The notes beneath the pieces are model-generated. The model did not search any database, was not told where the DNA came from, and saw nothing but the letters and a program-made list of their open reading frames with translations. From a virus: DNA of 28,265 nucleotides. Both the position numbers and the translations under genes were made by a program. The DNA is taken from positions 1-28,265 of the IMG/VR virus record IMGVR_UViG_3300037427_003863. One strand, 5' to 3'. Of this stretch, positions 3,297 through 19,219 are shown in pieces (positions within the stretch are counted from its first letter, which is position 1; the number at the start of each line of letters is the position of its first letter).

Positions 3297-3331
3297 TTAA
3301 ATATGTTAAATCAAGGTTGGTGAAAAGTCAA
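3297..3331 (-). promoter_or_regulatory. Sigma-70-like promoter placing +1 on the ATG at 3296
   Basis: Minus strand: TTGACT (3331-3326), 17-nt spacer, TAACAT (3308-3303), then ATTTAA and ATG. The -35 box matches 5 of 6 and the -10 box 4 of 6, including the important A at -11 and T at -7. The -10 ends 6 nt before the start codon, as at the Hsp20 and PHP-domain genes. No Shine-Dalgarno is present. The -35 overlaps the last codons of the upstream gene. Confidence 0.4.
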
Positions 3332-4482
3332 GCATTTTTTAATATCCTCACGTGATCTGTATCCCACCAGAAATCGTCTTCATTAGGAAGCTTAAAGACC
3401 GAAGAAGTATCAATCTTTGGGGTATCTTTACCTTGTTTCCAAAAAGAAGTATTAGGGTAAAACTTTTGGTTAGAAATGATAAACTTATTGCTACTAAAAT
3501 ATAAATCGTCTAAGTTTTCGTTCTTAAGTTTATCTTGTTTTAGAGGGTCTAGTGTTTTATCTAAATGTATCAAGCCGTAATCTAAATAGTCTATCTTAAT
3601 GTTTTGAACAAAATCTTTTTGTTCTCTGGTGCATAAAACATAATTGACTCCGGTTTTTAAGAGCTTGGAGACGAACGAAGGCGAATGACCCTTGTCCATT
3701 CTGTAAAAAATTACTTTTATTCTTTTTTTATGTTTTTTGATTATGGAAGCATTAATGGGTTTACTTGTGATAATCGCGTATTCACAACCACAGTCAACTC
3801 CAAGCTGCTTGTCTAAGCATTCTTCGTTGTGATCCAAGTCCATCCTTAAATATAACGTCTGACCAGAAAAACCGTCTATATTGACAGTGCTGTCTAGTAC
3901 TTGCTCTATGATAGCTTTATCGTAAGCCGACCCGCAGAAAAGAGTCTTGTATTTGTAACCTAAATCTATACCAAGCATATCACAAACAGCTTGGGCTATG
4001 CTTTCTGGGCTAACGCTGTTTATGTGAGAAGACTCTGGGTCTATGTTTATAAAACTTTTATCCTCTGACCAATAAGGTCCGAAAGAGCAAGACTTTTTGT
4101 CTGGAGAGAATACTGTAACTATTTTCTTTCCAAGGCTGGAGGCTATTTGAGTTAAGCCGCTTTCTACTCCGAAGTGAAGCAAAGAGTGGCTAATGATAAA
4201 AGAAGTTTGATTGATATTCGACCTGCCACGAAGATCCACGCATCCCTTGATAAGCGAATCTTCTTTTTCTCCTATTTGAACAATTGAAATACCTCGTTCT
4301 TTGAGAACCGGCGACAAGATACTCGTAACGGTACTCCAATAGCCATAGTTCCTTCCAGACAGGGATTTAGAGCAGTGTAGGGTGACGTAATCTCCAAAAG
4401 TCAATGGAAAATACTTTTGATAAACGAAAGGTTTATCTATTTTGAGTCTGCTGTCAGCAGAATATGACTCTATAACATGCAT
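3328..4482 (-). CDS. GT9-like (heptosyltransferase-type) C-terminal half plus an unknown domain
   Basis: 384 residues. Residues about 30-175 look like the second Rossmann half of a GT9 ADP-heptose:LPS heptosyltransferase: a strand (YVTLHCSKS), ISIVQIGEKED, CVDLRGRSNI (family pattern DLRGxTSL), and HFGVESGLTQIASSLGKK (family GVDSGLxHLAxALGxP) with VTVFSP after it. The matching N-terminal half sits at the end of the upstream protein. The remaining ~200 residues form an unrecognised alpha/beta region with Cys-rich and Lys-rich patches. The ATG directly follows the upstream TAG in the same frame. I infer that both chains act together in sugar transfer; the donor and acceptor are unknown. Confidence 0.65.
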   Translation of the reverse strand: MHVIESYSADSRLKIDKPFVYQKYFPLTFGDYVTLHCSKSLSGRNYGYWSTVTSILSPVLKERGISIVQIGEKEDSLIKGCVDLRGRSNINQTSFIISHSLLHFGVESGLTQIASSLGKKIVTVFSPDKKSCSFGPYWSEDKSFINIDPESSHINSVSPESIAQAVCDMLGIDLGYKYKTLFCGSAYDKAIIEQVLDSTVNIDGFSGQTLYLRMDLDHNEECLDKQLGVDCGCEYAIITSKPINASIIKKHKKRIKVIFYRMDKGHSPSFVSKLLKTGVNYVLCTREQKDFVQNIKIDYLDYGLIHLDKTLDPLKQDKLKNENLDDLYFSSNKFIISNQKFYPNTSFWKQGKDTPKIDTSSVFKLPNEDDFWWDTDHVRILKNA

Positions 4483-6420
4483 CTAATAATGGTAGATTAA
4501 ATCCGTCAAATCATTGCAATTATGCTCGTAGTTTCCGAGCGTCATTCTTTGATGAAACGGAGTGTAAACTACTTTGAATAGTTTGTCTTCTTCTAAAAAG
4601 CTAGACCTGTCTAGGCTTCTTGTGCTGTAGGGTAAAATTTTATAAATATAAGGGTTGCCAGAAATCAAATCCTTATATTTATCTAAGGTAAAAACGTATA
4701 AATTGTGATCAGGGTAAAGCTCTTTTATATTTTTGAACAGGGAAGTGGACATGTGTATATCTCCGATGCCTTGGGGAGCAACAAACCCTATTCTTCTTCC
4801 TTCGTCGTCTTCACCTAGTTCTCCTTTGATTAAATCAACTTCCTTGGTGTTTTTTCCCAATAGTTGGCTTTTGTGGTCTTTGTTTGTTTTGGCTACGCGC
4901 CTAAAAAAGTTCTCTACATCCGACCTAGGTTTTCCAGAGGTGATTTCCTTCATCCAGTATTTGTGCCCATCGTCTTGCTCTGAAACGTTATTTCTTTTTA
5001 GGATTTTCTCGTAAAGTTCGATTAACCACTCTGAGTTGTCCGTAATAGAATCGTCGACTTTTGCTTTATCATCTTCTATTGAAGAACCATCTAGGGAGAA
5101 ATCATAATCGACGTCAGCACAATTTTCTATGAACTCATCAACCTTTTTGCCGATTACGCAGGCGTCAAAGTTCAACAAGACCCACTTTCTAGCATCCTTG
5201 CCCATTCGGGATAAAAGCTCACCGTCCATATCATAAACCAAAGAAAGTTTATTACATATATCGTCTGGATCTGTGGATGCTTTCTTAAATTCTGTTTGGT
5301 GCTCTCTGTATTCAAACCATTTCAAAGGAATAGATCCGGCATCGTCAGCACAAGAGTCTTCGCCGCAGCTATAATTAGTTACGAGAGTCACTAGCTCCGT
5401 GAGTTTAGCTTCTTGTATGGGTATCTCTTGTCCTCCACTTGTAAAAGGGTGACAATAGACGTCCATTAAGTTGTATATTTCGTTAAGTTTCGTCTCGCTT
5501 ACTCCGACTGCAACGTTTGTGGTGTTTTGGGTTTTTTCCGATCCGCATGAAGGGCAGTCTAAATCTTGTTTGGTAAAGGGCTTTACTTCATACTCTCCAC
5601 AATCTTTACAAATATAGGTAGTTAAAATATCTTTAGGGTCTATTTTGTACTCTTCTGCTAAGGACATTATCTTCCACCCCTCTGAAAAATTAGTGTGCAA
5701 TAAAAGTTTAGCTTTTGAGTTTGGCATTCCGTTTTTAAACTTCTTAAAACCTTCCAATAAGTTAGGAACGGATTTTCTCAATTGATTCCGAAACACAAAT
5801 CCCACAACAAATTCATCGCTTAGGTTAGCTCTTGACCTAAGCTTTTTTCTCTCGTGATCTTTAAGTCTGCGAAAATATTTAGAAGGAACTATTCCCCTCA
5901 TAGTAATAGGGTGCTTGTGGCCTAAATGGTGAAGCTCTTTTGTTGCGAAATTGCTCCATATCCAGTAATTTTTTATTTTAGGGGCCGCATTAATTGCGGA
6001 AGGCAAGATAGGTAAAGAGTCCAAAGTGGTCCAGATGACGGAATTGATGTTATCAAACCAAGGCTTTTCTATTGCGAAATCCACTCCCCATATATCTTGG
6101 CAACCGATATAGACATCGGGCTTTTCGTCATACACAACCTTGTCGATGTAATATGAACCGTAGTTAGCGGCCCTTGCCATAGATGGGTCTCGCTGAATTT
6201 TGTTTCTTTCTAGGTCTGTCATGGGTAACGCACCCACGCTTTTCCAAGGAGTTTTTTCAAAATCTGGATTCGAATATGGAAGACCGCAGCAAAAATGAAC
6301 AATATCGTACTTGTCCAGATTATACAAATAAGTCAGCAACTCTCTGGCGTGTCTACCGAAGCCGGTCTTGACTAAAGAAAAGTCGCTATGGAACAATATT
6401 TTTTTTCTACCATTCTTCAT
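4483..6420 (-). CDS. Multidomain glycosyltransferase: GT4 with zinc ribbon, DUF4214, and GT9 N-terminal half
   Basis: 645 residues. Residues 1-430 are a GT4 (GT-B fold) glycosyltransferase: FHSDFSLVKTGFGRHARELL at the start, and HPFTSGGQEIPIQEAKL (about 324-340) with the E-x7-E-type donor-binding helix. A zinc ribbon is inserted at C271, C274, C289 and C292. Residues about 463-512 (WLIELYEKILKR...YWMKEITSGKPRSDV) match the DUF4214 pattern, a small helical domain often attached to glycan enzymes. Residues 542-645 begin RIGFVAPQGIGDIHMSTSLF, the first Rossmann half of a GT9 heptosyltransferase. The stop is TAG, immediately followed by ATG of the next gene in frame. The start overlaps the preceding gene by 14 nt. 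It probably builds or modifies a surface glycan. Confidence 0.8.
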   Translation of the reverse strand: MKNGRKKILFHSDFSLVKTGFGRHARELLTYLYNLDKYDIVHFCCGLPYSNPDFEKTPWKSVGALPMTDLERNKIQRDPSMARAANYGSYYIDKVVYDEKPDVYIGCQDIWGVDFAIEKPWFDNINSVIWTTLDSLPILPSAINAAPKIKNYWIWSNFATKELHHLGHKHPITMRGIVPSKYFRRLKDHERKKLRSRANLSDEFVVGFVFRNQLRKSVPNLLEGFKKFKNGMPNSKAKLLLHTNFSEGWKIMSLAEEYKIDPKDILTTYICKDCGEYEVKPFTKQDLDCPSCGSEKTQNTTNVAVGVSETKLNEIYNLMDVYCHPFTSGGQEIPIQEAKLTELVTLVTNYSCGEDSCADDAGSIPLKWFEYREHQTEFKKASTDPDDICNKLSLVYDMDGELLSRMGKDARKWVLLNFDACVIGKKVDEFIENCADVDYDFSLDGSSIEDDKAKVDDSITDNSEWLIELYEKILKRNNVSEQDDGHKYWMKEITSGKPRSDVENFFRRVAKTNKDHKSQLLGKNTKEVDLIKGELGEDDEGRRIGFVAPQGIGDIHMSTSLFKNIKELYPDHNLYVFTLDKYKDLISGNPYIYKILPYSTRSLDRSSFLEEDKLFKVVYTPFHQRMTLGNYEHNCNDLTDLIYHY

Positions 6421-6961
6421 CTAAAATGTCAGCATTTTTGCTGGGAGCTTCTTCTTCGGTTGGCTTCTTTTTTGCGGGAGGGTGAGATCCATCTGTGTGA
6501 GGAATATCCATTACATCGAAGATCCTACCCAAGTTCCTCTCCAAATAAAGGCGCAGGGCTGTAGCTTCACCAAAGTTTAAACCAATAATAAAGGAACATT
6601 TGTTTGTTGTGTCCTCTTTGCTATCCTTATTAACCCCGTAACTAAAACCCGCTTGCTTGCCCTCTTTCATGTAGGGCTTAAAATTGATCTTCGTTATTTG
6701 GTTCTTGCTATCGTGGTAAGCGGAGAACGATCCATTGCGAGATATGGCGTCCACCAAAGCCGCCGCTTCGCTAACGCTGAATTTGACTATAGCTTTAGCT
6801 TTTGGGTTGTCTTTGCTTTTGCTGAAAGACCCCGTTCTGCTTTTTGTGTTCCAGCCGTCTTGTTTTATAAAAGAACTGAAAACTGCCTTCTCTGTTGTGC
6901 TCGCCCAAAATGAGCAAGCGCTTCCGGTAACTTTAGGGTTGGGTTTATAGAACTGTAGCAT
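6407..6961 (-). CDS. Candidate single-stranded DNA-binding protein (acidic-tip family)
   Basis: 184 residues. The body (about 1-150) is predicted beta-rich with a short helix; it starts MLQFYKPNPKVTGSACSFWA and carries FSVSEAAALVDAI and IIGLNFGEATALRLYLE helices. The tail is a disordered Pro/Lys/Glu segment ending ADILDEEW. An acidic tip with a terminal aromatic residue resembles the SSB C-terminal peptide that docks replication proteins. It lies immediately downstream of the polymerase, which fits such a role. It does not show a clear OB-fold SSB signature, so it could be a different ssDNA-binding fold or an unrelated phage protein. It overlaps the small 56-residue gene upstream and the glycosyltransferase gene downstream. 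Confidence 0.5.
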   Translation of the reverse strand: MLQFYKPNPKVTGSACSFWASTTEKAVFSSFIKQDGWNTKSRTGSFSKSKDNPKAKAIVKFSVSEAAALVDAISRNGSFSAYHDSKNQITKINFKPYMKEGKQAGFSYGVNKDSKEDTTNKCSFIIGLNFGEATALRLYLERNLGRIFDVMDIPHTDGSHPPAKKKPTEEEAPSKNADILDEEW

Positions 6962-7124: not shown

Positions 7125-9713
7125 CTAATTTTCTAGGTTTTTAATTTCCGAAAGTTTCGTGAAAACTTTGTTATCTTGGCACGCTATCATATCAGCAAAA
7201 ACCGCCTCGTCTTTCTTTACTCCTTTGATAATAACAATGCTTTTCTCTTTTGGAAGTTTGTCGTCATTATCTCTTCTGCATATATCCAATTTGTCGTTAA
7301 ATATCAGAACCTTGATGGTGGCGGTTTCGTCGGTTATTTCAAACCTGCAATATCTGCTACCTCTCTTTGAGGTGGATGAATACGGCTTATCGTTTATGCG
7401 ACCAACAAAAATGCATTTTTCGTTCATTGGAAAGTTCTCCACTTCTCTGATCGAGAACAACCTAGGCATTCCTTGTCTTTTGGAGGAGAAGATATCGCGC
7501 AGAGATACTCCATGCGTATACCCTAGCAAATGATTCTCGTAATACCAATTAGCAAAACTCTCTGATTTTTTGTTTTGATTGTATATTTTAGCATAAGGAG
7601 ATGCTTTTCTTTTGATAGTCTCCAGTCTGCTATCTTTTATTATCTGCCTACCTTTGTCGTCTTTCGCTTTAACATTCAGATCTTTAATTACTTCGACTAG
7701 ATCGTAGTTGTATTTTTCACCCATAGGCAATGCTTTCATTTTTTCCCTGTCGGTGAGTAGGTTCCATATTTGAGCCTCGTAGACAACTTTGGTTCTTGTC
7801 TGTTTGAACCCCTCTAGAGACCCAGCCTGTATCAAAGGGCACAAAATGCTTAAAGATATACCAGCTTCTTTAGCTGCTTGAAATATCTCAAATTTAGTGG
7901 AGAACTCTTTTCTAAAGTCCATTAATTTGTCAATCGACTTATCGGATATACCTTTGATCGAAAGCAATCCGAAGCGAATATCGTCTCCTTCGATCTTAAA
8001 ATCCAAATCAGATTTAATTATGTGAGGGGGAAGCAGTTTAATGCCAAAAAGGTCAAATTCTTGTTCTATTTTAGATATCTCTTTAATTGGATCTGGCTCG
8101 TGCCGAGTCATTTTTAATAAAGCCAAAAAGAATTCTTTTGGATGCTTAAATTTGAGATATATAGTGGCCGCTGAAAGGGAAGCGTAAGCTATTGAATGGG
8201 ACTTATTGAAAGAATAGTTTGCGGAATCCTCTAGGACGCTCCATAGTACATCTCCAACGTCGACTTGACCTTTAGTGCCTGTCCATTCAGAGCTTAGCCT
8301 GTTTTCTTCTACCTTCTTTCTAATTTTCTTTTTCCACTCTCTAACTTCTTTAATTTTCTTCTTTCCGACTATCCTTCTTAAAGTTTCAGCTTCGTCAAGG
8401 GTAAAGCCTACTTTGTGGGCCATCTGCATCATCTGCTCTTGATACAAACAGACTCCGCCTGTGTTCTTTAGGATATCGTCGAAAAAAGGATGTATAGCTT
8501 CGTAAACATTGTTGTTGCTAAAGTCTGAATATTGATCCACAAAAGATAAAGCCCCGGGTCTACCTAAAGCAAGCACGGCACTCAACTCCTCTAGGTTTTT
8601 AGGCTTAACTTTCTGACAAACTCTAAAGTTAGCGTCAGCTTCTATTTGGAAAATTCCATGAGGGGACTTTAGGTCGTACGTTTGTTGGTATATGAATTCA
8701 TCGTTAAGATTTATATCAGTAACTTTTATCCCTATCTCCTTGCAGGCCTGATCAACAACAGAGACGCTTCTCAGGCCCAATATATCAAGTTTAACATTAG
8801 ATAAGGAAACCCAATTCATGTCAAACCCAGAAACGGGATCTTTATCAGAAGAAAGCTCGGTTGGACAAGATTTGTTAAGGTCATCGTAAGACAACAAAAT
8901 CCCAGAAGGATGAACTCCTTTATTCTTTATTAGCCCCGCTATCTTTCTGGCGACAGTGTAGACTTTTTCGTTATTGCTGCACCAATCTTCGAACTCGGCT
9001 ACCTCTTTTCTGGCGGTTTGGATATCTTGAACTTTTCCAAAAACTTTCGGTATTAAATTGGAAACTGAGTTCATTTCGGTTTCCGTTTTTTCCCCGACAA
9101 CCTTTCCGCACTCTTTTATCAAAAGCTTACCGCTTAATGTGTTGAGGGTGAGGATTTTTGCGGTTTTCCCTTTGAATTTATCCTCTAAGTATCTCAAAAC
9201 TTTTGAGCGACTGTAATAGCAAATATCCAAATCAACATCGCACATTAAGTTCCCATCTAAATATGTTACCCCATCTATGACTTGTTTTTTTGCCCTAGCT
9301 TTGGATATAAATCTCTCAAAGTATAGTCCATATTTTATTGGGTCTATTTGAGTGACCCCTATGAGGTATAAAACGAGACTGCCAGCAGCGGAACCTCTTC
9401 CCAAACCAGTTGGGATACCTTCCTCTTCGCAGAAATTGATCACATCGTATACGAGTAATATGTAATCAACAAATCCTAATTCTTTTATTATGCCCAGCTC
9501 TCTTTTTGTTCTGTTCACATAGTCTTGCCTGTTCCCAGATATTTCTATAGTCTTTAAACCTTCGCTGCATAAAGCCTTTAAAAAAGAAAAGTTATCGTCT
9601 TTGGCTAAGTCTATCCCTTGTTTCTTTTTTGGTTTAAAAGATGGCAGTCTGACTCCATGTATGTCAAGAGAAACGCCTTTTAATTCGGAGGTGAACTTAT
9701 TCATTATCGTCAT
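7125..9713 (-). CDS. dnaE: C-family DNA polymerase III alpha subunit, polymerase core without PHP domain
   Basis: 862 residues; replicative DNA polymerase. It opens in the palm region that follows the PHP domain in normal DnaE: GFVDYILLVYDVI, then GLGRGSAAGSLVLYLIGVTQ. Catalytic aspartates are D161 and D163 (in CDVDLDI) and D310 (VKLDILGLRS), equivalent to E. coli D401, D403 and D555. Later motifs GIFQIEA, YQEQMMQMAHKVGFTL, and FNKSHSIAYASLSAATIYLK are intact. A C-terminal OB-like region (about 755-830, CIFVGRINDKPY...RFEITDETATIKVLIF) follows tandem HhH-like sequence. E. coli DnaE is 1160 residues; the missing ~270 are the separate gene at 11149-11925. The start may be M1 or M4 (9704); it overlaps the upstream gene by 17 nt. 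Confidence 0.95.
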   Translation of the reverse strand: MTIMNKFTSELKGVSLDIHGVRLPSFKPKKKQGIDLAKDDNFSFLKALCSEGLKTIEISGNRQDYVNRTKRELGIIKELGFVDYILLVYDVINFCEEEGIPTGLGRGSAAGSLVLYLIGVTQIDPIKYGLYFERFISKARAKKQVIDGVTYLDGNLMCDVDLDICYYSRSKVLRYLEDKFKGKTAKILTLNTLSGKLLIKECGKVVGEKTETEMNSVSNLIPKVFGKVQDIQTARKEVAEFEDWCSNNEKVYTVARKIAGLIKNKGVHPSGILLSYDDLNKSCPTELSSDKDPVSGFDMNWVSLSNVKLDILGLRSVSVVDQACKEIGIKVTDINLNDEFIYQQTYDLKSPHGIFQIEADANFRVCQKVKPKNLEELSAVLALGRPGALSFVDQYSDFSNNNVYEAIHPFFDDILKNTGGVCLYQEQMMQMAHKVGFTLDEAETLRRIVGKKKIKEVREWKKKIRKKVEENRLSSEWTGTKGQVDVGDVLWSVLEDSANYSFNKSHSIAYASLSAATIYLKFKHPKEFFLALLKMTRHEPDPIKEISKIEQEFDLFGIKLLPPHIIKSDLDFKIEGDDIRFGLLSIKGISDKSIDKLMDFRKEFSTKFEIFQAAKEAGISLSILCPLIQAGSLEGFKQTRTKVVYEAQIWNLLTDREKMKALPMGEKYNYDLVEVIKDLNVKAKDDKGRQIIKDSRLETIKRKASPYAKIYNQNKKSESFANWYYENHLLGYTHGVSLRDIFSSKRQGMPRLFSIREVENFPMNEKCIFVGRINDKPYSSTSKRGSRYCRFEITDETATIKVLIFNDKLDICRRDNDDKLPKEKSIVIIKGVKKDEAVFADMIACQDNKVFTKLSEIKNLEN

Positions 9714-9915
9714 TTTTGGAAGGTCTTACGGCTCCTTCAATATCTAGTCTATGTAAAATTGTTTTTAGCGCATTCATACTGTCTTTGTCCGTTAGTCTAA
9801 ACAAGACTTCTGCAGCTTCTTCTTTTTTGTTCTTTTGAATAGCTATTAAAAGATAATCTATGTTATCTTCTTTTAACTTGTCAGAAAGATCGTAGAAGTA
9901 ATCTAAGGAAGGCAT
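9697..9915 (-). CDS. Small hypothetical protein in the split polymerase cluster
   Basis: 72 residues, predicted mostly helical (KLKEDNIDYLLIAIQKNKKE, MNALKTILHRLDIEG), with a polar, acidic C-terminus (PSKNDDNE). It is encoded between the DnaQ-like exonuclease and the polymerase core, 1 nt after the exonuclease stop codon, and overlaps the polymerase start by 17 nt. Its size and position recall the small theta-type accessory subunits of polymerase III cores, but I see no sequence similarity to theta (HolE). Function unknown. Confidence 0.6.
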   Translation of the reverse strand: MPSLDYFYDLSDKLKEDNIDYLLIAIQKNKKEEAAEVLFRLTDKDSMNALKTILHRLDIEGAVRPSKNDDNE

Positions 9916-9916
9916 T

Positions 9917-10573
9917 TTATATATCTACCATGTACTTTAACTTATCCCAAACCTTTATGTTCAGCTCTAAGTCAACCACTGCGTCATGAAGGTTATCGTA
10001 ATCGTGGTCAATGTCAAACTCTTTACCTAACGCTGTCAAATTGGTTCTTACCCCTCTTTTCCTTTTGTGAACCATCTTATACTGATGAAGGGTTAAGCCG
10101 TCTGGGTTGCCATTGGAGCGAAAAGGAACGTCCATTTTTACGCCTTTTGCCAAACAGTTAGTGTCTATAACTTTAGAAACTAGATGCCTGTAGTCTTTAC
10201 CCATGTAATTGTAGTAGTCTTTTATGAGGTAAATATCAAACCCTAAGATATTGTGGCCGACAATGTAATCGCAGGAGTCAAGTTCCCTTTCTATATCTTC
10301 AAAAGCTTTCTCTGGGGAAATAGCTAAAGACTCAAATTTTGAAGGGTTAAATTTTGTAATCCTTGCTGCCTCTTCGCCTATCTCCAAATCTGTGTCCCAT
10401 TTTATGTGAAGGTCCCACTTCTTGACGGGTTGAGTGTTGAACCCGCTCTTGGTTTTTATCATGCCAACCTGCCAAGGAAGGTTTTCAGCACTGTTTAGGC
10501 ATAGGTTAAACGTCTCGCAATCAATAAAAAGCAAGGTCTTGTCTTTGTTGAATCTTAGTAAATGTTCGTCCAT
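9917..10573 (-). CDS. DnaQ-like DEDDh 3'-5' exonuclease (proofreading candidate)
   Basis: 218 residues. All three exonuclease motifs are present: Exo I FIDCETF (D18, E20), Exo II HNILGFD (D113), and Exo III HDAVVD (H196, D201), which makes it DEDDh type. The fold is like the epsilon subunit of polymerase III and RNase T. It is encoded between the two halves of DnaE, so proofreading for this polymerase is the natural inference. It lacks an obvious clamp-binding QLxLF motif; the C-terminus is VWDKLKYMVDI. The start ATG lies 3 nt after the upstream stop (TAA ATA ATG). Confidence 0.9.
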   Translation of the reverse strand: MDEHLLRFNKDKTLLFIDCETFNLCLNSAENLPWQVGMIKTKSGFNTQPVKKWDLHIKWDTDLEIGEEAARITKFNPSKFESLAISPEKAFEDIERELDSCDYIVGHNILGFDIYLIKDYYNYMGKDYRHLVSKVIDTNCLAKGVKMDVPFRSNGNPDGLTLHQYKMVHKRKRGVRTNLTALGKEFDIDHDYDNLHDAVVDLELNIKVWDKLKYMVDI

Positions 10574-10576
10574 TAT

Positions 10577-11152
10577 TTAAAAATCAAAGGGGTCTTCATG
10601 GGCTTCGGGTATTAATGTTTTATGTAAGCCGGATATAGGTAAATTATACATATCCACTAAAGTAGTAAAGCCATTTGAGTTGTCTTTGCGGCCTTTTTTC
10701 CAAAGCTCAGATGCTTTCCAAAATTCTTCGTATGACATATCGCCGCAGTACCATACATTTATTAGTCCATAATATTGCTTCCCGCCTTTTCTTTGCAGGC
10801 CTTCTGCTGCTTCTCCATAATAGTCACTTTTTTTAAATTGCAAACTTATAAAAGCGTATCTGTCGGGCTTTTGGTGATTGCTCGTTTTTGCTACGGATAC
10901 ATCATAATGACTTTTTGGTTTTACTATCCTCCTTTTTGTTTTAACTTCGATAGTTTCACCATTTCGATTAATATCGTGGTTATATTTATCGCTTGGAGTT
11001 TTGACGCTCAAGTAAGTGCTTAACGCTAGTTCCCCAACTCTTCCAGCAGCATTTCCTCGACCACTCGTTATAGAATTATTTAAAGCGCCAAGTTCTGTAG
11101 CCCACCTCTTCGCTTCCTTTATCATTTCTTGCGTATGTGGTAATTTAATCAT
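10577..11152 (-). CDS. PD-(D/E)XK-type nuclease
   Basis: 191 residues. The catalytic pattern is E41 (in AGRVGELALSTYL), D60 (NHDINRNG), and E69-V-K71 (TIEVKTKRR), the classic PD-(D/E)XK layout. A later region (QYYGLINVWYCGDMSYEEFW) may complete the fold. Substrate specificity cannot be read from sequence; restriction-type, structure-specific or repair roles are possible. The end, AHEDPFDF, is similar to the end of the RecB-like nuclease two genes upstream. It overlaps the PHP gene by 4 nt (ATGA) and precedes the exonuclease. Confidence 0.7.
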   Translation of the reverse strand: MIKLPHTQEMIKEAKRWATELGALNNSITSGRGNAAGRVGELALSTYLSVKTPSDKYNHDINRNGETIEVKTKRRIVKPKSHYDVSVAKTSNHQKPDRYAFISLQFKKSDYYGEAAEGLQRKGGKQYYGLINVWYCGDMSYEEFWKASELWKKGRKDNSNGFTTLVDMYNLPISGLHKTLIPEAHEDPFDF

Positions 11153-11925
11153 TTTTTTTCATTCCAGCTTTCAAGGCAGAACTCATCGGAGCACATATGT
11201 TCAATGTTGGGTTTGCTCAGTATTGTTCTTTTGTTTATACATTTAAATGTAAGGTAAGCTTTAAAGTCTTTTTTATCTTTATAGTAAATTGATTTTGTTT
11301 TTATTAACGAATCACTGGACAAATTAAGCTCTTTTGAAGCGTAATTTTCAACAAGCTTAGTTAGAAGGCTGTCGAACGGAAGGTTATTATCCTCAATAAA
11401 GAAAACAGGGTCAAGAAAGGAGAAGTCGGGTATGCATGTTTTGCTATGTAAATTATTGTAAAAAACAAAAGAATCGTAAAAAGGCACCGCCAAAGACAGG
11501 TCTTCGTTAGACCAATGCTTTTTTAAGTTTTTGAAATCTGTTCGAGGCTCATAGTAAAAACCATCTTTAGCCGCTTCGCTGTATATCTTTATTAACCTTT
11601 CGTAACCGGCATTGTTCTTGCAAAATATAATATATTTACAGGAAGTGTTGAGGGAGCCTTCGTTTTTTACGGATAAGTCCTCACAAAAAGTAAGCCTAAG
11701 ACCGAAGTTGAACTTTAGGCCAGATGATTTAGCGTTAGTGCAGGCTTCCAAAAAGCCCGTCATGCTATCTTCAACCAAAAATAAATCATCTATGCCGTTT
11801 TCGGTGCATAGCTGAATCACTGAATCCGGATCAAGGGGGTCTTTATCTTTGATAGGTTCGCCAAGCGTAAGTATTGACCTACCAACACTATAATGAGATT
11901 TCCACAATGGAATAATGCTTCCCAT
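11149..11925 (-). CDS. dnaE: Stand-alone PHP domain of DnaE, active site degenerate
   Basis: 258 residues, matching the N-terminal PHP domain of C-family polymerases in length and pattern. It has KSHYSVGRSIL at the start, DDLFLVEDSMTGFLEACTNA then a GLKFNFGLRL strand, and IIFCKNNAGYERLIKIYSEA (family: LxKNxxGYxNLxxLxSxA). The C-terminal section AYLTFKCINKRT...CSDEFCLESWNEKK matches the end of the domain. Metal-ligand positions look lost: HxH is KSH, the LTDH motif is LVEDS, and the usual Glu of GxE is Arg. So it is probably structural, perhaps holding the exonuclease, as PHP does in E. coli. It has its own consensus promoter and ends ATGA into the nuclease gene. Confidence 0.85.
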   Translation of the reverse strand: MGSIIPLWKSHYSVGRSILTLGEPIKDKDPLDPDSVIQLCTENGIDDLFLVEDSMTGFLEACTNAKSSGLKFNFGLRLTFCEDLSVKNEGSLNTSCKYIIFCKNNAGYERLIKIYSEAAKDGFYYEPRTDFKNLKKHWSNEDLSLAVPFYDSFVFYNNLHSKTCIPDFSFLDPVFFIEDNNLPFDSLLTKLVENYASKELNLSSDSLIKTKSIYYKDKKDFKAYLTFKCINKRTILSKPNIEHMCSDEFCLESWNEKK

Positions 11926-11960
11926 GCCCGAATTATAGGATAGTGTTGGGGTGAGGTCAA
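11926..11960 (-). promoter_or_regulatory. Near-consensus sigma-70 promoter, leaderless geometry, for the split dnaE cluster
   Basis: Minus strand: TTGACC (11960-11955), exactly 17 nt, TATAAT (11937-11932), then TCGGGC and the ATG at 11925. The -35 box matches 5 of 6 and the -10 box 6 of 6. With the usual 6-nt gap after the -10, transcription would start on the A of the start codon. The -35 overlaps the stop codon of the upstream nuclease gene. Confidence 0.75.
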
Positions 11961-12925
11961 GCTAAAAAATCAAACAAATCTTCTTTTTCTTGATTTTTGT
12001 GAGCTGGGCAACCGTCGTAGGTCTTTTTGACTATTTTTTGACCCTTCTTTGCTACTAAATCGTCTTTGAGCGACCTACCGAGTACTTTGTTATCTTTGTC
12101 TACTAACTGCCAATAGTCGTAACTGTTTAAATACGGACATCTCCAAGAACCTATTTTGCAAAGCCAAGCGTTTTTCTTACTGTTTTTCGCGTAGTTAGAT
12201 TTTGCGTCCTTTTCTGTATAACTATTTATCTTTTGATATACTTCTGCCAAAAAGTATTCAAGACCTAACAGTTGGTCATCGTTAAACTCTAGGACTTGAG
12301 AGGGTTTCCTTGGGTGCCTTAAAAAAAGAAACTCAACTAAAGCTTTTTTATCTGGCCATATTTTTCTCGCAGCAAGGGAGTAGGCCATTGCTTGAATGTT
12401 GGATGTTAGCTCTTCTCCTCGAAATTTGTATTTGCTGCTTTTGTAATCTACAATCTTAAGCTCGTCTTCATAGTGAATTGGCTTATCCATAAATCCCCTT
12501 ATTTTGTACTCGGGGTCTTTATTGTCTATTAAGAACTCGTACTCGGGGTCTCTTATTTCGCCCCCTTCGCCAAGAAAGTCATTCTTTAAGCCGACCAGAA
12601 TCATGTTGTCCATTAATTCAAACGTATCATCAGAGGACATTTCAGGAAGGCTCCACTTCTCAGCATCTCGGTTCATGTGTTTTAAGACCAGTCTCGAAAT
12701 CGCCCTGCAAGGTCTAATAGATCCGCTATCTATGATTAATTTGATATACTTTTTGTGGCGAGGTTTAAGCAGAAGCTCGAAAACTAAATGAGCTATTGTT
12801 CCCCTGAGAGCCCCTTCGTTTTGTTGTTGGGGTACTTTCTCGTGGTAGTTCATCCAGTAAGACCAAGAGCAGGTCTCGAGCGTCTTTATTCTGGAAGCTG
12901 ATAGTATTTTTTCTTCTTTAGCCAT
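11957..12925 (-). CDS. RecB/Cas4-like PD-(D/E)XK exonuclease, probably with an Fe-S cluster
   Basis: 322 residues. Starts with the family opening LSASRIKTLETCSWSYWMNY, then H46 (RGTIAH), D147 (RGFMDKP), D160 and K162 (KIVDYKSSK) and Q178/Y182 (IQAMAYSL), which together form the RecB-family nuclease site. Cysteines C19, C256, C263 and C306 are spaced as in AddB/Cas4/Dna2 proteins that hold a 4Fe-4S cluster. It is probably a 5'-3' or end-processing exonuclease in phage recombination. There are no CRISPR repeats or cas1/cas2 nearby, so it is not an adaptation gene here. Its start overlaps the primase stop by 8 nt. It ends in EKEDLFDFLA, a possible docking tail. Confidence 0.85.
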   Translation of the reverse strand: MAKEEKILSASRIKTLETCSWSYWMNYHEKVPQQQNEGALRGTIAHLVFELLLKPRHKKYIKLIIDSGSIRPCRAISRLVLKHMNRDAEKWSLPEMSSDDTFELMDNMILVGLKNDFLGEGGEIRDPEYEFLIDNKDPEYKIRGFMDKPIHYEDELKIVDYKSSKYKFRGEELTSNIQAMAYSLAARKIWPDKKALVEFLFLRHPRKPSQVLEFNDDQLLGLEYFLAEVYQKINSYTEKDAKSNYAKNSKKNAWLCKIGSWRCPYLNSYDYWQLVDKDNKVLGRSLKDDLVAKKGQKIVKKTYDGCPAHKNQEKEDLFDFLA

Positions 12926-13817
12926 GAGCCCAATTGTTTATTTCGTCCTTATTCATAACCCCGAAATCGTTCTTAGTGGGTAGTTTAATTTTGATTTGGT
13001 GGGGGTCGAAGTACCTCTTGAGTTTTGTGGATATTTTTTCGGAAGCTACGTTACCCGCTTGAGAGCTTTTGATATCATTGTTGAGGCAGATAAATATCTT
13101 ATCCGGATCAATTTTGAGTAAAACATTTATCAGATCCACACTCACGTCTACACCGAAGGTGATCAAGCTATGTTTGTATCCAGCATTCCAAAGGGATAGC
13201 ATGTCTCCTATGCTCTCAACGAGGATAACTTTTTTTCTTTGTTTAATCTCTTTGAAGTTTAGGTGCAGGGGGTATTTCCATTTTGACTTTTCTCCAAAAT
13301 GTTTCCATTTTGGCCTAGTCTTGGAAGGCTGCAAGTCTCTGCCAGAAAAGCCAACTATAGACTTAGAAGAATTAAAAATAGGAAAAACGTATCTACCTAT
13401 CATCCTGCCAGTTCCAGCAATACCGCCTCTAAATAACTTAATTGTGTCGAGTGGAACACCTCTCTTCAACCAATAACTATGATCTGGAATGAGCTTATCG
13501 AGATACTCTGGGGAGTAAATTTTGGGGTGTTTGATTTCAGGTCTTTGGTTGGACTGTGTTTGAGTTGATATACCTTTTTTGGAAACCCACTTTGCAGCTT
13601 CTTGAGATGTTTTTAGATTAAGCGTTAGCTTAACTAAATCACTAAGAGAGCCTTTGATATTTGCGCTAAAGTCTATAAATCGACCAGACTTTTTGTCTAC
13701 TTTTAGCGAGGAGTTGTTGCCAGAGTCTCTGTAGATAGGTCTCATTCGATATTCTTTTCCGTTATCCACGATATTGGAATAGCCTATCTCGTCTAGTATA
13801 TCTTTTATTTCGCTCAC
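12918..13817 (-). CDS. DnaG-type primase with TOPRIM domain, zinc site lost
   Basis: 299 residues, about half the length of E. coli DnaG. The N-terminal region keeps the shape of the CHC2 zinc domain (YRMRPIYRDSGNN...SGRFIDFSANIKGSLSDLV), but every zinc cysteine/histidine is replaced; the protein has one cysteine in total. The TOPRIM domain is at about 195-270: ILVESIGDMLSLWNAG with E201 and FICLNNDIKSSQAGN with N246/D248 in place of DxD. The LNND variant occurs in other phage primase-like proteins. There is no helicase-binding C-terminal domain. It starts at GTG, overlapping the upstream TGA (GTGA). It likely makes primers for the DnaB-like helicase encoded at 21.7 kb. Confidence 0.8.
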   Translation of the reverse strand: MSEIKDILDEIGYSNIVDNGKEYRMRPIYRDSGNNSSLKVDKKSGRFIDFSANIKGSLSDLVKLTLNLKTSQEAAKWVSKKGISTQTQSNQRPEIKHPKIYSPEYLDKLIPDHSYWLKRGVPLDTIKLFRGGIAGTGRMIGRYVFPIFNSSKSIVGFSGRDLQPSKTRPKWKHFGEKSKWKYPLHLNFKEIKQRKKVILVESIGDMLSLWNAGYKHSLITFGVDVSVDLINVLLKIDPDKIFICLNNDIKSSQAGNVASEKISTKLKRYFDPHQIKIKLPTKNDFGVMNKDEINNWAHG

Positions 13818-14246: not shown

Positions 14247-14333
14247 TGGTACCGGTGACTGGACTCGAACCAGTACTCCCTAACGGGAAAGAGATTTTAA
14301 GTCTCTCGTGTCTACCAATTCCACCACACCGGC
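14247..14333 (-). tRNA. tRNA-Leu (anticodon UAA)
   Basis: 87 nt including an encoded CCA. The acceptor stem pairs GCCGGTG with CACCGGT (G1-U72, then six pairs). The anticodon stem AGAGA/TCTCT encloses the loop CTTAAAA, giving anticodon UAA. A long class II variable arm (CCC-GTTA-GGG) and T-arm ACTGG-TTCGAGT-CCAGT are present. It decodes UUA/UUG, which are frequent in this AT-rich genome. The upstream mini-gene reads into its 5' half. Confidence 0.97.
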
Positions 14334-15238: not shown

Positions 15239-15478
15239 TTATTCGTAAATTACTTCGTAGTCTTCGATAATAGAATTGTATAAGAGTTTATCTATCGCTT
15301 CTTGAACATTTTCTTTCAGTTCTTCTTCTGGCGCATCTTCTAATTGAACTTCTATGTACCTACCTATACTAACTTTCTTTAAGTGTTTTATTCCTATCTT
15401 CTCAAGGTTCTTTTTAACTACGACTCCTTGAGGGTCTAGCGTATTCGATTTGGGGCGGGTCATTACTCTAGCTTTCAT
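15239..15478 (-). CDS. purS: PurS, small subunit of phosphoribosylformylglycinamidine synthase
   Basis: 79 residues, the usual PurS length. Pattern: KARVMTRPKSNTLDPQGVVV at the start (family V-x-L-K-x-x-x-L-D-P-Q-G), GRYIEVQLED in the middle and NSIIEDYEVIYE at the end (family N-P-V-I-E-D-Y). PurS works with PurL and PurQ to convert FGAR to FGAM in purine synthesis; neither partner is in this window, so it would need host or other phage partners. It overlaps PurM by 1 nt (TAATG), so the two steps before AIR are encoded together. Confidence 0.85.
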   Translation of the reverse strand: MKARVMTRPKSNTLDPQGVVVKKNLEKIGIKHLKKVSIGRYIEVQLEDAPEEELKENVQEAIDKLLYNSIIEDYEVIYE

Positions 15479-16431
15479 TATTCTATAATCCCCGCTTCAA
15501 TTGTTATGTGTTTAAATAAGGTATAAGTTAGATCAGTGCCCTTTCCATGTTTATAACCTACCGAATCCAACTTTTTCTTCTCTTCCCTGCTTAAGACAAG
15601 ACACATACCTATACCATTGTTAAAAACAGAACTCATTTCTTCTTCTGTTATTTTGCCCGTTTCTTGGACGAGGTCCATTATGGGGGGGCGAGGAATATCG
15701 TCTTTCCATTTTACATTTAATCCTTTGGGGAGGATTCTGTTGAGGTTTTGGAAGCCTCCTCCCGTTATGTGCGCTATCCCTTTTATTTTGATGCCTTTTT
15801 TTAACAGGCTCAACACCTTGCTCACGTAAATTTCTGTAGGTTTTAATAGTGTATCTATGTATGGCTCAAAGGTTTGCTTGTCGAAGATTTTCCTTATTAA
15901 AGAATACCCGTTGCTGTGAAAGCCATTGCTAGGTAGCCCCAAAACCACATCGCCTTTTTCGATATCGCTTCCGTCGATAAGCTCTTCTTTTTTTACTATA
16001 CCAACGCAAAAACCAGCTACATCAAAATGTTTATCCGGCAGTAATGTCGGAAGCTCCGCCGTTTCTCCTCCTATCAGGGGTATATTTGCAGTTTCACACC
16101 CTTTTTTTATCGAGTTGAGAACAGTGAGGTATTGCTTTTCTTCTATGTTTGCAGAGGCGAAATAATCCAAAAAGAACAAAGGCCTAGCGCCGGAACAGAT
16201 AATGTCATTTACGCACATAGCAACGCAGTCAATTCCAATTCCTTCTAGCTTATTGTATTCTTGGGCCAGAAGAATTTTCGTGCCTACCCCGTCTGTAGAG
16301 GAAACTAAATAATTTTCACCTAAGTCATATAAGCCGCCAAAGCCGCCTATGTTCTCCACTATTCCAGAAATCTTTTCAGCTAGCCTGTCTGTTTTGGCCA
16401 CATCTACCCCTGCCTGTTTGTAGATTTCCAT
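15478..16431 (-). CDS. purM: PurM, phosphoribosylformylglycinamidine cyclo-ligase (AIR synthase)
   Basis: Converts FGAM and ATP to AIR, the step after PurL/S/Q. Motifs: YKQAGVDVAKTDRLAEKI at the N-terminus, STDGVGTK (nucleotide binding), GIDCVAMCVNDI, PLFFLDYFA and IPLIGGETAE, all typical of PurM. The C-terminal half carries SNGFHSNGYSLIRK and HITGGGFQNLNRILP. I use ATG 16431 (317 residues) because homologues begin just before YKxAGVD; a GTG at 16443 would add four residues and overlap the upstream small gene. Cyanophages are known to carry purM, thought to increase nucleotide supply. Confidence 0.93.
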   Translation of the reverse strand: MEIYKQAGVDVAKTDRLAEKISGIVENIGGFGGLYDLGENYLVSSTDGVGTKILLAQEYNKLEGIGIDCVAMCVNDIICSGARPLFFLDYFASANIEEKQYLTVLNSIKKGCETANIPLIGGETAELPTLLPDKHFDVAGFCVGIVKKEELIDGSDIEKGDVVLGLPSNGFHSNGYSLIRKIFDKQTFEPYIDTLLKPTEIYVSKVLSLLKKGIKIKGIAHITGGGFQNLNRILPKGLNVKWKDDIPRPPIMDLVQETGKITEEEMSSVFNNGIGMCLVLSREEKKKLDSVGYKHGKGTDLTYTLFKHITIEAGIIE

Positions 16432-16436
16432 TTTTT

Positions 16437-16631
16437 TTACCACTTATGAATTATATTAGCCACAATAAAAAAACAAGTAATTACGTTTACCAACAAGATG
16501 AAGCTACGCAGAAAAAGACTGACCTGAGCTTGCCCCAAGGAAAGTATAGGGATATCGGGTTCGTCATCGTCGGTTTTTCCTATTCTGTGGTCTACTGTTC
16601 TAGCCCAAATTAGCCAAAGTTTTTTTATCAC
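16437..16631 (-). CDS. Small protein with one C-terminal transmembrane segment
   Basis: 64 residues from a GTG start at 16631 (no ATG available). The N-terminal 30 residues are polar, with the acidic patch TDDDEPDIP. Residues about 38-60 (FLRSFILLVNVITCFFIVAN) form a single membrane helix with a C-terminal HKW tail. It starts 1 nt after the TAA of the 30-residue ORF upstream and ends 5 nt before the PurM ATG. Function unknown. Confidence 0.5.
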   Translation of the reverse strand: MIKKLWLIWARTVDHRIGKTDDDEPDIPILSLGQAQVSLFLRSFILLVNVITCFFIVANIIHKW

Positions 16632-17337: not shown

Positions 17338-18132
17338 TTACAAAAGTTGTGATTTGACCCATTTAGAGAAATCAAAGGAGACGCCTCTTTCCTGCACTGC
17401 TTGAGTCGCCAAGGAGTTAGCGAATTTTATAGAACGCTTTATATCTTTGCTCTTTACGAAGGAGTAGACAAGGCCAGCATGAAAAGAATCTCCGGCCCCG
17501 GACAAATCAGAAATATCAACCATTTTAACAGGGAAATACTCGAAGCCGTTTTCAGTGTTAAACATGCAGCCGCGGCTGCCGAGCGTAACCAAGAGTTTGT
17601 TTTTCCATCCGTCTAAATCTATACTATTCTTAATTGACTCAAATTCGGGGCTATTGATTTTGATAATGAATGCGTTCTCGCACCAAGTGCCTATTAGTTT
17701 TTTCGTGTCTATGAAAACGGAATCGTGATTGTCACAAAAGTACTTTATGTCGTCCTCGTGCAAAAACCCTTTGCCGTAATCAGCTATAACTATAGCCTTG
17801 TATTTATCTAAATCGTAATTATTTCTCCAGTCTTCTGGTACCCTAGGAGTCTTGTCTCCGGAGTCAACCCTAAGAAAAGTATGGTTTGATTTAAGGTCAA
17901 TGTATCTATGCTTAATACATTTGCTTCTATTGGTTAAGAGATCACACTCAAGGCCCAATGACTGAAGGTTGTTAAAAACATTACCGGCCATGCCCATGTT
18001 GTGCACAGACCTGATAGGTTTGAAAACAGGCGCAGGGACATCTGGGCACTGCCTATCTGAATGGCCGTAAGTAAATTTGTCTTGGCAGCTATCGCCTACA
18101 ACTAGTATTTCCGAGTTTTCTGAATTATTCAT
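17338..18132 (-). CDS. PfkB/ribokinase-family sugar kinase, HldE kinase-domain-like
   Basis: 264 residues. The opening ILVVGDSCQDKFTYG, followed by CPDVPAPVFKP and NMGMAGNVFNNLQSLG, resembles the kinase half of HldE (RfaE), which phosphorylates D-glycero-D-manno-heptose 7-phosphate. The catalytic PfkB signature SDLSGAGDSFHAGLVY holds D215 and the anion hole. The usual GGAANVA motif is altered to GMAGNVF. HldE is normally fused to a nucleotidyltransferase; here that activity is a separate gene at 18746-19219. The ATG is 5 nt after the end of tRNA-Arg, with no Shine-Dalgarno. Other PfkB sugar substrates remain possible. Confidence 0.75.
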   Translation of the reverse strand: MNNSENSEILVVGDSCQDKFTYGHSDRQCPDVPAPVFKPIRSVHNMGMAGNVFNNLQSLGLECDLLTNRSKCIKHRYIDLKSNHTFLRVDSGDKTPRVPEDWRNNYDLDKYKAIVIADYGKGFLHEDDIKYFCDNHDSVFIDTKKLIGTWCENAFIIKINSPEFESIKNSIDLDGWKNKLLVTLGSRGCMFNTENGFEYFPVKMVDISDLSGAGDSFHAGLVYSFVKSKDIKRSIKFANSLATQAVQERGVSFDFSKWVKSQLL

Positions 18133-18137
18133 ACGAA

Positions 18138-18213
18138 TGGTACCCCGAGAAGGATTCGAACCTTCAATCTACAACTTAGAAGGTTGTTGCCTTATCCATT
18201 CGGCCATCGGGGC
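18138..18213 (-). tRNA. tRNA-Arg (anticodon UCU)
   Basis: 76 nt with encoded CCA. The acceptor stem pairs GCCCCGA with TCGGGGT (G1-U72 plus six pairs). The anticodon stem ACAAC/GTTGT encloses the loop CTTCTAA, giving UCU, which reads AGA/AGG. T-arm AAGGTTCGAATCCTT. AGA is common in the genes here and often rare in hosts, a usual reason for a phage to carry this tRNA. Confidence 0.97.
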
Positions 18214-18745: not shown

Positions 18746-19219
18746 TTAAAAGAACAGGCTCCCTGCGTCAGACTGACATGCTTTACCTATCGATGTATGA
18801 CCGGAGATGAGCCATCTACTGCTTTGTATTTTCTCTCCTAGGCCGTAAACGGGATCAATCCCGAGGTCTAAGCATAATTTATGCTCTGGTTTGTCCCCGT
18901 CTTCTGTTCTGTCTCCTCCGTTGCAGAACATCATCTTGCTGTATCTGTTTTTGAAGACTTGGTGAATCCATTCTAAGGTTTTGCAAACGCTATCGTCCTC
19001 GTCGGTACACGCAATAGACATGGTAACAGGCTTGAGAGCTTGTATCATTATCATCCTCTCTCTAAAAGGCATAAAGGGCTTAGATTTTTTCCGTTTGAGG
19101 AAGTCGTCGTTATTAACAATAACAAACAAATGGTCCGCCAAGAGCTTAGCTTTTTCAAAGCATTCTAAATGCCCAACGTGAACAGGGTCGAAGCCGCCGC
19201 TAACTATAGATAATTTCAT
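18746..19219 (-). CDS. Nucleotidyltransferase (HldE C-domain / cytidylyltransferase type)
   Basis: 157 residues. SGGFDPVHVGHLECFEKAK holds the (T/S)GxFDxxHxGH nucleotide-binding motif (H14, H17); VNNDDFLKRKK and MPFRERMIMIQAL follow as in HldE, and a SSRWLISG segment near the C-terminus stands where the ISS-T/S-x-x-R motif is. The family transfers a nucleotide to sugar 1-phosphates (ADP-heptose), glycerol or ethanolamine phosphate. Paired with the PfkB kinase, phosphatase and GT9-like genes, ADP-heptose synthesis is the most coherent guess; CDP-glycerol-type activity is an alternative. It overlaps the preceding stop (ATGA). Confidence 0.8.
   Translation of the reverse strand: MKLSIVSGGFDPVHVGHLECFEKAKLLADHLFVIVNNDDFLKRKKSKPFMPFRERMIMIQALKPVTMSIACTDEDDSVCKTLEWIHQVFKNRYSKMMFCNGGDRTEDGDKPEHKLCLDLGIDPVYGLGEKIQSSRWLISGHTSIGKACQSDAGSLFF

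Follow-up and report, generated by a model that had tools for sequence, protein, structure and literature searches.

The DNA polymerase of a mostly aquatic lineage of uncultured phages is encoded with its PHP domain and its catalytic core as separate genes. We studied this arrangement in the IMG/VR record IMGVR_UViG_3300037427_003863, the whole of which (28,265 bases, hereafter the window) was analyzed and which is probably a fragment of a phage genome. In the window, a 258-residue PHP chain of the DnaE type that stands alone (positions 11149 to 11925, minus strand; Pfam PHP, 6.2e-10, and fold model) and an 862-residue DnaE-type polymerase core with palm/fingers, HhH and a C-terminal OB (CORE; 7125 to 9713, minus strand; Pfam and TIGR00594) flank the gene of a 218-residue DEDDh exonuclease of the DnaQ/PolC type, the likely proofreader (EXO; 9917 to 10573, minus strand; Pfam RNase_T, 1.9e-10, and phrog_192). 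These open reading frames (ORFs) belong to one operon on the minus strand and lie where an earlier, sequence-only reading of the window had placed them. C-family polymerases have been stated to carry PHP, palm, thumb and fingers universally on one polypeptide (PMC3666897), but here PHP and core occupy separate ORFs in every distinct sequence pair that we collected (265/265), and in the open-access literature we found no earlier account of a DnaE core whose PHP domain is a chain of its own. We consider it likely that PHP chain, core and exonuclease form one three-chain replicase in which the PHP chain is a structural subunit.

Eight scans of IMG/VR yielded 510 loci after exclusions, 465 of which hold both halves. 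Because several loci share one contig, counts are given by distinct pairs. PHP, EXO and CORE follow in that order on one strand, and are never fused, in all 465 loci and all 265 distinct pairs; the separation of PHP and core by an exonuclease gene, first read from the window alone, thus holds throughout the clade. As a control, the same profiles do report fusion in the single-chain cultured phages L328 and L329. The PHP gene was found in 427 of the 428 loci with enough upstream sequence. One could imagine that an ordinary single-chain DnaE merely looks split through misassembly or a frameshift, and L145/L444 indeed appears frameshifted within the core. However, this explanation is refuted by the 265 distinct pairs, which come from many metagenomes and always have the exonuclease gene between the halves, together with the conserved promoter at the PHP start described below, and we give it virtually no credence.

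In a FastTree phylogeny of 36 split cores and 7 single-chain polymerases, the split cores formed one clade (support 0.964), for which a single split event would be the simplest reading of the tree. No cultured member of the clade was found above ~34% identity, and there was no close cultured relative for the polymerase, helicase, RecA, terminase or exonuclease. The same gene order was present in seven contigs of metagenome-assembled genomes in the GTDB genome collection; these are likely to be binned phage contigs, and no host is therefore claimed. Among gut-phage records that have both parts, the nearest look single-chain, since their PHP and core matches are ~90–210 bases apart, a gap too small for an exonuclease gene.

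The contigs of ten relatives (109–172 kb, not certified complete) were examined for polymerases and for a sliding clamp. Each of the ten had one PF07733 match, and none had a PF00476 (PolA) or PF00136 (PolB) match; PF02811 gave one match, adjoining the core, in nine of them. A second polymerase, which would have spoken against the sequence-only reading, was therefore looked for and not found in these large relatives, where the C-family polymerase is the sole recognisable one. The ten contigs likewise gave no match to the clamp families PF02767 or PF02916, so that the clamp would have to be that of the host or an unrecognised one.

The cut falls in the linker that joins PHP to the palm. The core matches DNA_pol3_alpha (PF07733, 2.6e-58) and the finger domain (PF17657, 2.9e-32), followed by HHH_6 at residues 557–642 and an OB at 770–832 (1.7e-4, under the Pfam cut-off); HhH followed by a C-terminal OB is the DnaE order, not that of PolC. 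The catalytic residues D161, D163 and D310 are invariant in 36 sequences, and a tau-binding C-terminal domain was not seen in the core by family profile searches. On the TIGR00594 model, the PHP chain covers positions 40–245 and the core positions 276–1022. The ~30 linker positions missing between the two correspond by alignment roughly to the helix-rich segment that connects PHP with the LPxF strand ahead of the palm. The core had been read as beginning just before the palm motifs; it does start ahead of them, but more exactly its first residue lies ~20 positions ahead of the conserved LPxF strand, which itself comes before the palm. The TIGR00594 alignment has no extra residues at the cut, and the Pfam library found no intein domain in the PHP chain or core of the window.

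This bears on the idea that a mobile element fractured the gene, leaving either a protein that is trans-spliced by a split intein or a recent lesion. Split-intein-like halves do occur elsewhere in the core of L016, L017, L224, L243 and L314, and the PHP-EXO junction often takes other genes, including nuclease-like ones. However, neither an intein nor extra residues are present at the cut in the window, although the same library detects Intein_splicing in L224, L017 and L314 (below the Pfam cut-off), and the split is fixed across the whole clade. Fracture in this form is thus very improbable, while a mobile element may have been the cause of the original split.

The inteins of the relatives form a separate observation. 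One split intein cuts the core between SANYSFNK and SHS in L224 (11630–14632), L243 (3726–6701), L016 (11294–14175) and L017 (8098–11909), with a CLSEDT-like IntN and an IntC that ends in VTSN before the serine. In L016 and L017, the intein-split parts of the core are separated by ~850 bp, which resembles fractured genes. The core of L314 (7995–11042) has another split-intein-like insertion, of a different kind, at GAGRG, within the conserved GRGSAAGS motif. The DnaE of Alicyclobacillus phage KKP_3916 (L328) is spread over several ORFs, perhaps by introns or inteins; its deposited annotation lists these ORFs as hypothetical proteins, the polymerase not having been recognised.

The detached PHP chain retains the complete domain. 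Its predicted structure (predicted local distance difference test score, pLDDT, 91.8) aligns over its full length with the PHP domains of DnaE (residues 3–247 in E. coli and 5–258 in Taq; VIA Z 22.5–22.8, root-mean-square deviation 2.8–3.1, 232–235 residues aligned). Residues 1/2–258 of the model match Taq and Mtb DnaE with Z 22.8, and the chain also matches 3e0d by hmmsearch (1.7e-9). It therefore ends about where the PHP domain of DnaE ends, as had been read from the sequence.

The same cannot be said of the active site. A catalytic PHP exonuclease has nine metal ligands (PMC3919608), and in an alignment of 216 PHP sequences all nine positions are changed, bearing out the earlier impression that the ligands were lost. 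HxH has become L-x-K, the Asp of LDG is R/K, the His of TDH is S/N, the Glu of GxE is R, the His of HLxxLA is K, the Cys of SGC is lost and DxH has become S/T-x-Y/F/L, the positions being matched by sequence alignment and approximate for the Cys. Four of the former ligand positions now hold Lys or Arg (K9 in 99.5%, R/K16 in 98.6%, R/K77 in 98% and K97 in 100% of the 216), and because of this conservation the former metal site looks repurposed or charge-balanced and not drifting. The invariant residues of the chain are kept in sequences of as low as ~33% identity; the chain is therefore under selection. It is possible, if doubtful, that the free PHP chain has become a regulatory hub whose Lys/Arg pocket would grip an acidic partner or a nucleotide, leaving the phage able to load, exchange or release its exonuclease (as well as the nuclease domain that is fused in some relatives) separately from the core.

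The exonuclease keeps its catalytic residues. The DEDDh motifs (D-x-E, D, H-x4-D) are present, with D18, E20, D113, H196 and D201 invariant in 48 sequences, and the closest solved structure is the PolC exonuclease 2p1j (1.3e-9). This relationship raises the question of a dismantled PolC, whose PHP, Exo and Pol domains would now be separate genes, the more so as the exonuclease of PolC sits inside its PHP domain. However, nothing interrupts the single domain of the PHP chain, the OB follows the polymerase on its C-terminal side in the manner of DnaE, and the best models for the core are DnaE, with no Gram-positive PolC-type model reported for it. We regard descent from PolC as highly unlikely.

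The reading that we favor is the following. The DnaE-type alpha subunit of the phage is divided at the PHP-palm linker. PHP chain, core and DEDDh exonuclease would be expressed together from the promoter that adjoins the PHP start codon, and would associate non-covalently as a single replicase. The core would polymerise and the exonuclease would proofread, while the catalytically dead PHP chain would pack beside the thumb, stabilise the core and probably position the exonuclease. What the sequences show is the split, the gene order, intact polymerase and exonuclease residues, a dead PHP metal site and the lack of another recognisable polymerase in the large relatives; from these we infer the assembly, the role of the PHP chain and the docking of the exonuclease. 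Also in favor of this reading are the overlap of the PHP and EXO genes in 160/265 distinct loci and a promoter conserved before PHP but not before EXO or CORE. On its own, the E. coli PHP domain (1–270) stays soluble and can bind the exonuclease (PMC3642679); in E. coli, PHP without metal lends stability to Pol III, and loss of the ligands goes along with a separate exonuclease (PMC3666897). By this analogy, the PHP chain of the phage would be a structural subunit that holds the core and probably the exonuclease.

Several observations count against such a three-chain replicase. One locus, L128, has no PHP or EXO within 4 kb upstream, and in a few loci the PHP-EXO or EXO-CORE distance is up to 2–8 kb, which indicates that the operon need not be tightly coupled. 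In E. coli, the tail of epsilon wraps the PHP domain and the clamp motif lies just after the catalytic domain (PMC3642679). EXO stops 17–21 residues past motif III in 297 of 297 sequences, compared with 76 in E. coli epsilon, and is thus too short for the PHP-binding C-terminal tail or the clamp motif. Any docking on the PHP chain must therefore differ from that in E. coli, and the binding of DnaQ to PHP, which the sequence-only reading had taken as its precedent, does not transfer as stated. Coevolution was assessed by regularised covariance with average product correction, first on 129 and later on 175 non-redundant sequences (effective numbers 67 and 80). PRI and PDD served as the control partners, and the later round also used within-clade permutation. 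At this effective depth of 67–80 sequences, neither the PHP-CORE nor the EXO-CORE signal was above PRI-CORE and PDD-CORE.

A coevolution signal no higher than the controls also fits a PHP chain that functions outside the polymerase, as a separate dead-enzyme regulator or as an exonuclease partner, the core needing no PHP domain. The PHP gene has lost the linker and has its own promoter; it overlaps the EXO gene in 160 of the 265 distinct loci, whereas EXO and CORE are neighbors in fewer (135/265). The chain also occurs fused to nuclease-like domains, namely a C-terminal PD-(D/E)XK-like domain in L144 (1751–3070), L269 and L271 (9992–11311) (L144 and L271 by eye), and, in L149 (3–866), the family of the 191-residue nuclease described below (NUC). 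Nevertheless, the whole DnaE PHP fold is kept, and the gene is present in all but one of the loci with enough upstream sequence, so that we hold a PHP chain outside the polymerase to be distinctly unlikely and retain the three-chain replicase.

The start of the PHP gene is marked by a sigma70-like promoter, TTGACC-17-TATAAT (11932 to 11960, minus strand), which agrees with the consensus at 11 of 12 positions, as near to it as the sequence-only reading had claimed. The -10 box ends 6 nt before the PHP ATG, and a leaderless mRNA starting at this ATG is predicted. Sites of at least 10/12 that end 4–8 nt from the PHP start are found in 45% of 204 distinct upstream regions. By the same measure, the frequency is 0.15% in shuffled sequences, 0–1.4% before EXO, CORE, PRI and PDD, 15% before the family of the 72-residue protein and 43% before that of the downstream 184-residue protein, both described below. 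The position of the promoter supports PHP as a real independent start.

Comparison with known systems sets this arrangement apart. It shares with bacterial DnaE1 (Pol III alpha) and its separate epsilon, as in E. coli, the DnaE domains up to the OB, the dead PHP metal site and a separate DEDDh exonuclease. The alpha of E. coli is one chain, whereas in the phage PHP is a chain by itself and the linker is absent; in addition, no tau-binding domain was seen, and EXO is without the epsilon tail. The single-chain phage DnaE proteins (phrog_405; for example, those of Moorella phage MTATph1, Bacillus phage Andromeda and Streptomyces phage Daubenski) have a homologous polymerase and PHP, and those tested are 24–33% identical to the core, but each is one ORF of 1014–1094 residues with PHP fused and no exonuclease gene between. 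A split minimal Pol III alpha has been described in group 2.2 jumbo phages (Iyer et al. 2021, PMC7824862), which are similar in having a phage C-family polymerase in separate genes. There, however, the cut is inside the catalytic core, PHP and other domains are absent, the genes are far apart and the enzyme accompanies a PolB (PMC7824862), whereas the present cut separates PHP from palm, the genes are together and the polymerase is the only one found. Cyanobacterial DnaE is also encoded in two genes, but a split intein divides it (PMC3919608); its cut lies within the polymerase and trans-splicing restores the chain, and no intein is present at the cut described here. PolC likewise has its exonuclease encoded between PHP and polymerase, but there it lies inside the PHP of one chain with an N-terminal OB, whereas the phage has an uninterrupted PHP and a C-terminal OB.

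What inactive PHP domains do has been a long-standing question (PMC3666897). In these phages, evolution has cut the PHP-palm joint and yet kept both parts across a large clade, which provides a natural test of what PHP is for. Adding or omitting the chain would show its part in stability, speed and exonuclease docking, an experiment that is difficult to perform cleanly when the domains are fused. The arrangement also represents a second, different mode of splitting Pol III alpha in phages, beside that of the jumbo phages.

The polymerase genes of the window are part of a longer series on the minus strand, in the order primase, RecB/Cas4-like nuclease, PHP, 191-residue protein, exonuclease, 72-residue protein, core, 56-residue ORF and 184-residue protein. 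The tightly overlapped run recognised earlier is real for the genes from PHP to core, but it extends further upstream, to the primase and the RecB/Cas4-like nuclease. The proposal that five genes encode one polymerase complex fared less well, as the exact five-gene order occurs in only 19 of the 265 distinct loci; in 106, PHP, EXO and CORE are direct neighbors. Other genes, nuclease-like ones among them, are often inserted at the PHP-EXO junction, and the genes found at the junctions of the three include, by eye, cupin-like, glycosyltransferase-like and IMP-dehydrogenase-like ones.

The 191-residue protein (NUC; 10577 to 11152, minus strand), a PD-(D/E)XK-like nuclease by motif reading only, had no Pfam, NCBIfam or PHROG match. 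Its family is found between PHP and EXO in 32/265 distinct loci (12%) and elsewhere in some, and the gene is a passenger or accessory. The 72-residue protein (9697 to 9915, minus strand) is predicted to fold as helix-strand-strand-helix (pLDDT 77.5, predicted template modeling score 0.54); no family was found for it in Pfam, PHROG or NCBIfam, and its model had no PDB match with E below 0.5. Its family precedes CORE in only part of the clade (108/265 distinct loci, 41%), with the gene within −150 to +20 nt of CORE in 97.6%, and stays beside CORE even where EXO is kilobases away (L012, L100 and L144). Because the gene stays attached to CORE, the protein is a better candidate than the nuclease for a core factor, and it may be an optional, core-linked one.

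Three further neighbors are conserved: upstream, a RecB/Cas4-like PD-(D/E)XK exonuclease (11957 to 12925, minus strand) and a DnaG-type primase with a Toprim domain (12918 to 13817, minus strand), and downstream, the 184-residue protein with an acidic C-terminus (6407 to 6961, minus strand), which had no family match and is possibly a single-stranded DNA-binding protein.

Elsewhere in the window, a pfkB kinase gene (17338–18132) and a cytidylyltransferase gene (18746–19219) resemble the two halves of HldE, and a possible heptosyltransferase-like protein is encoded at 3328–4482; the three could be part of a phage ADP-heptose pathway. The window also has genes for tRNA-Leu (TAA) and tRNA-Arg (TCT) at 14247–14333 and 18138–18213, respectively, a purine-synthesis gene, AIR synthase (PurM-like), at 15478–16443, and an adenosylcobalamin-dependent ribonucleoside-triphosphate reductase at 83–2023 (TIGR02505, above cut-off).

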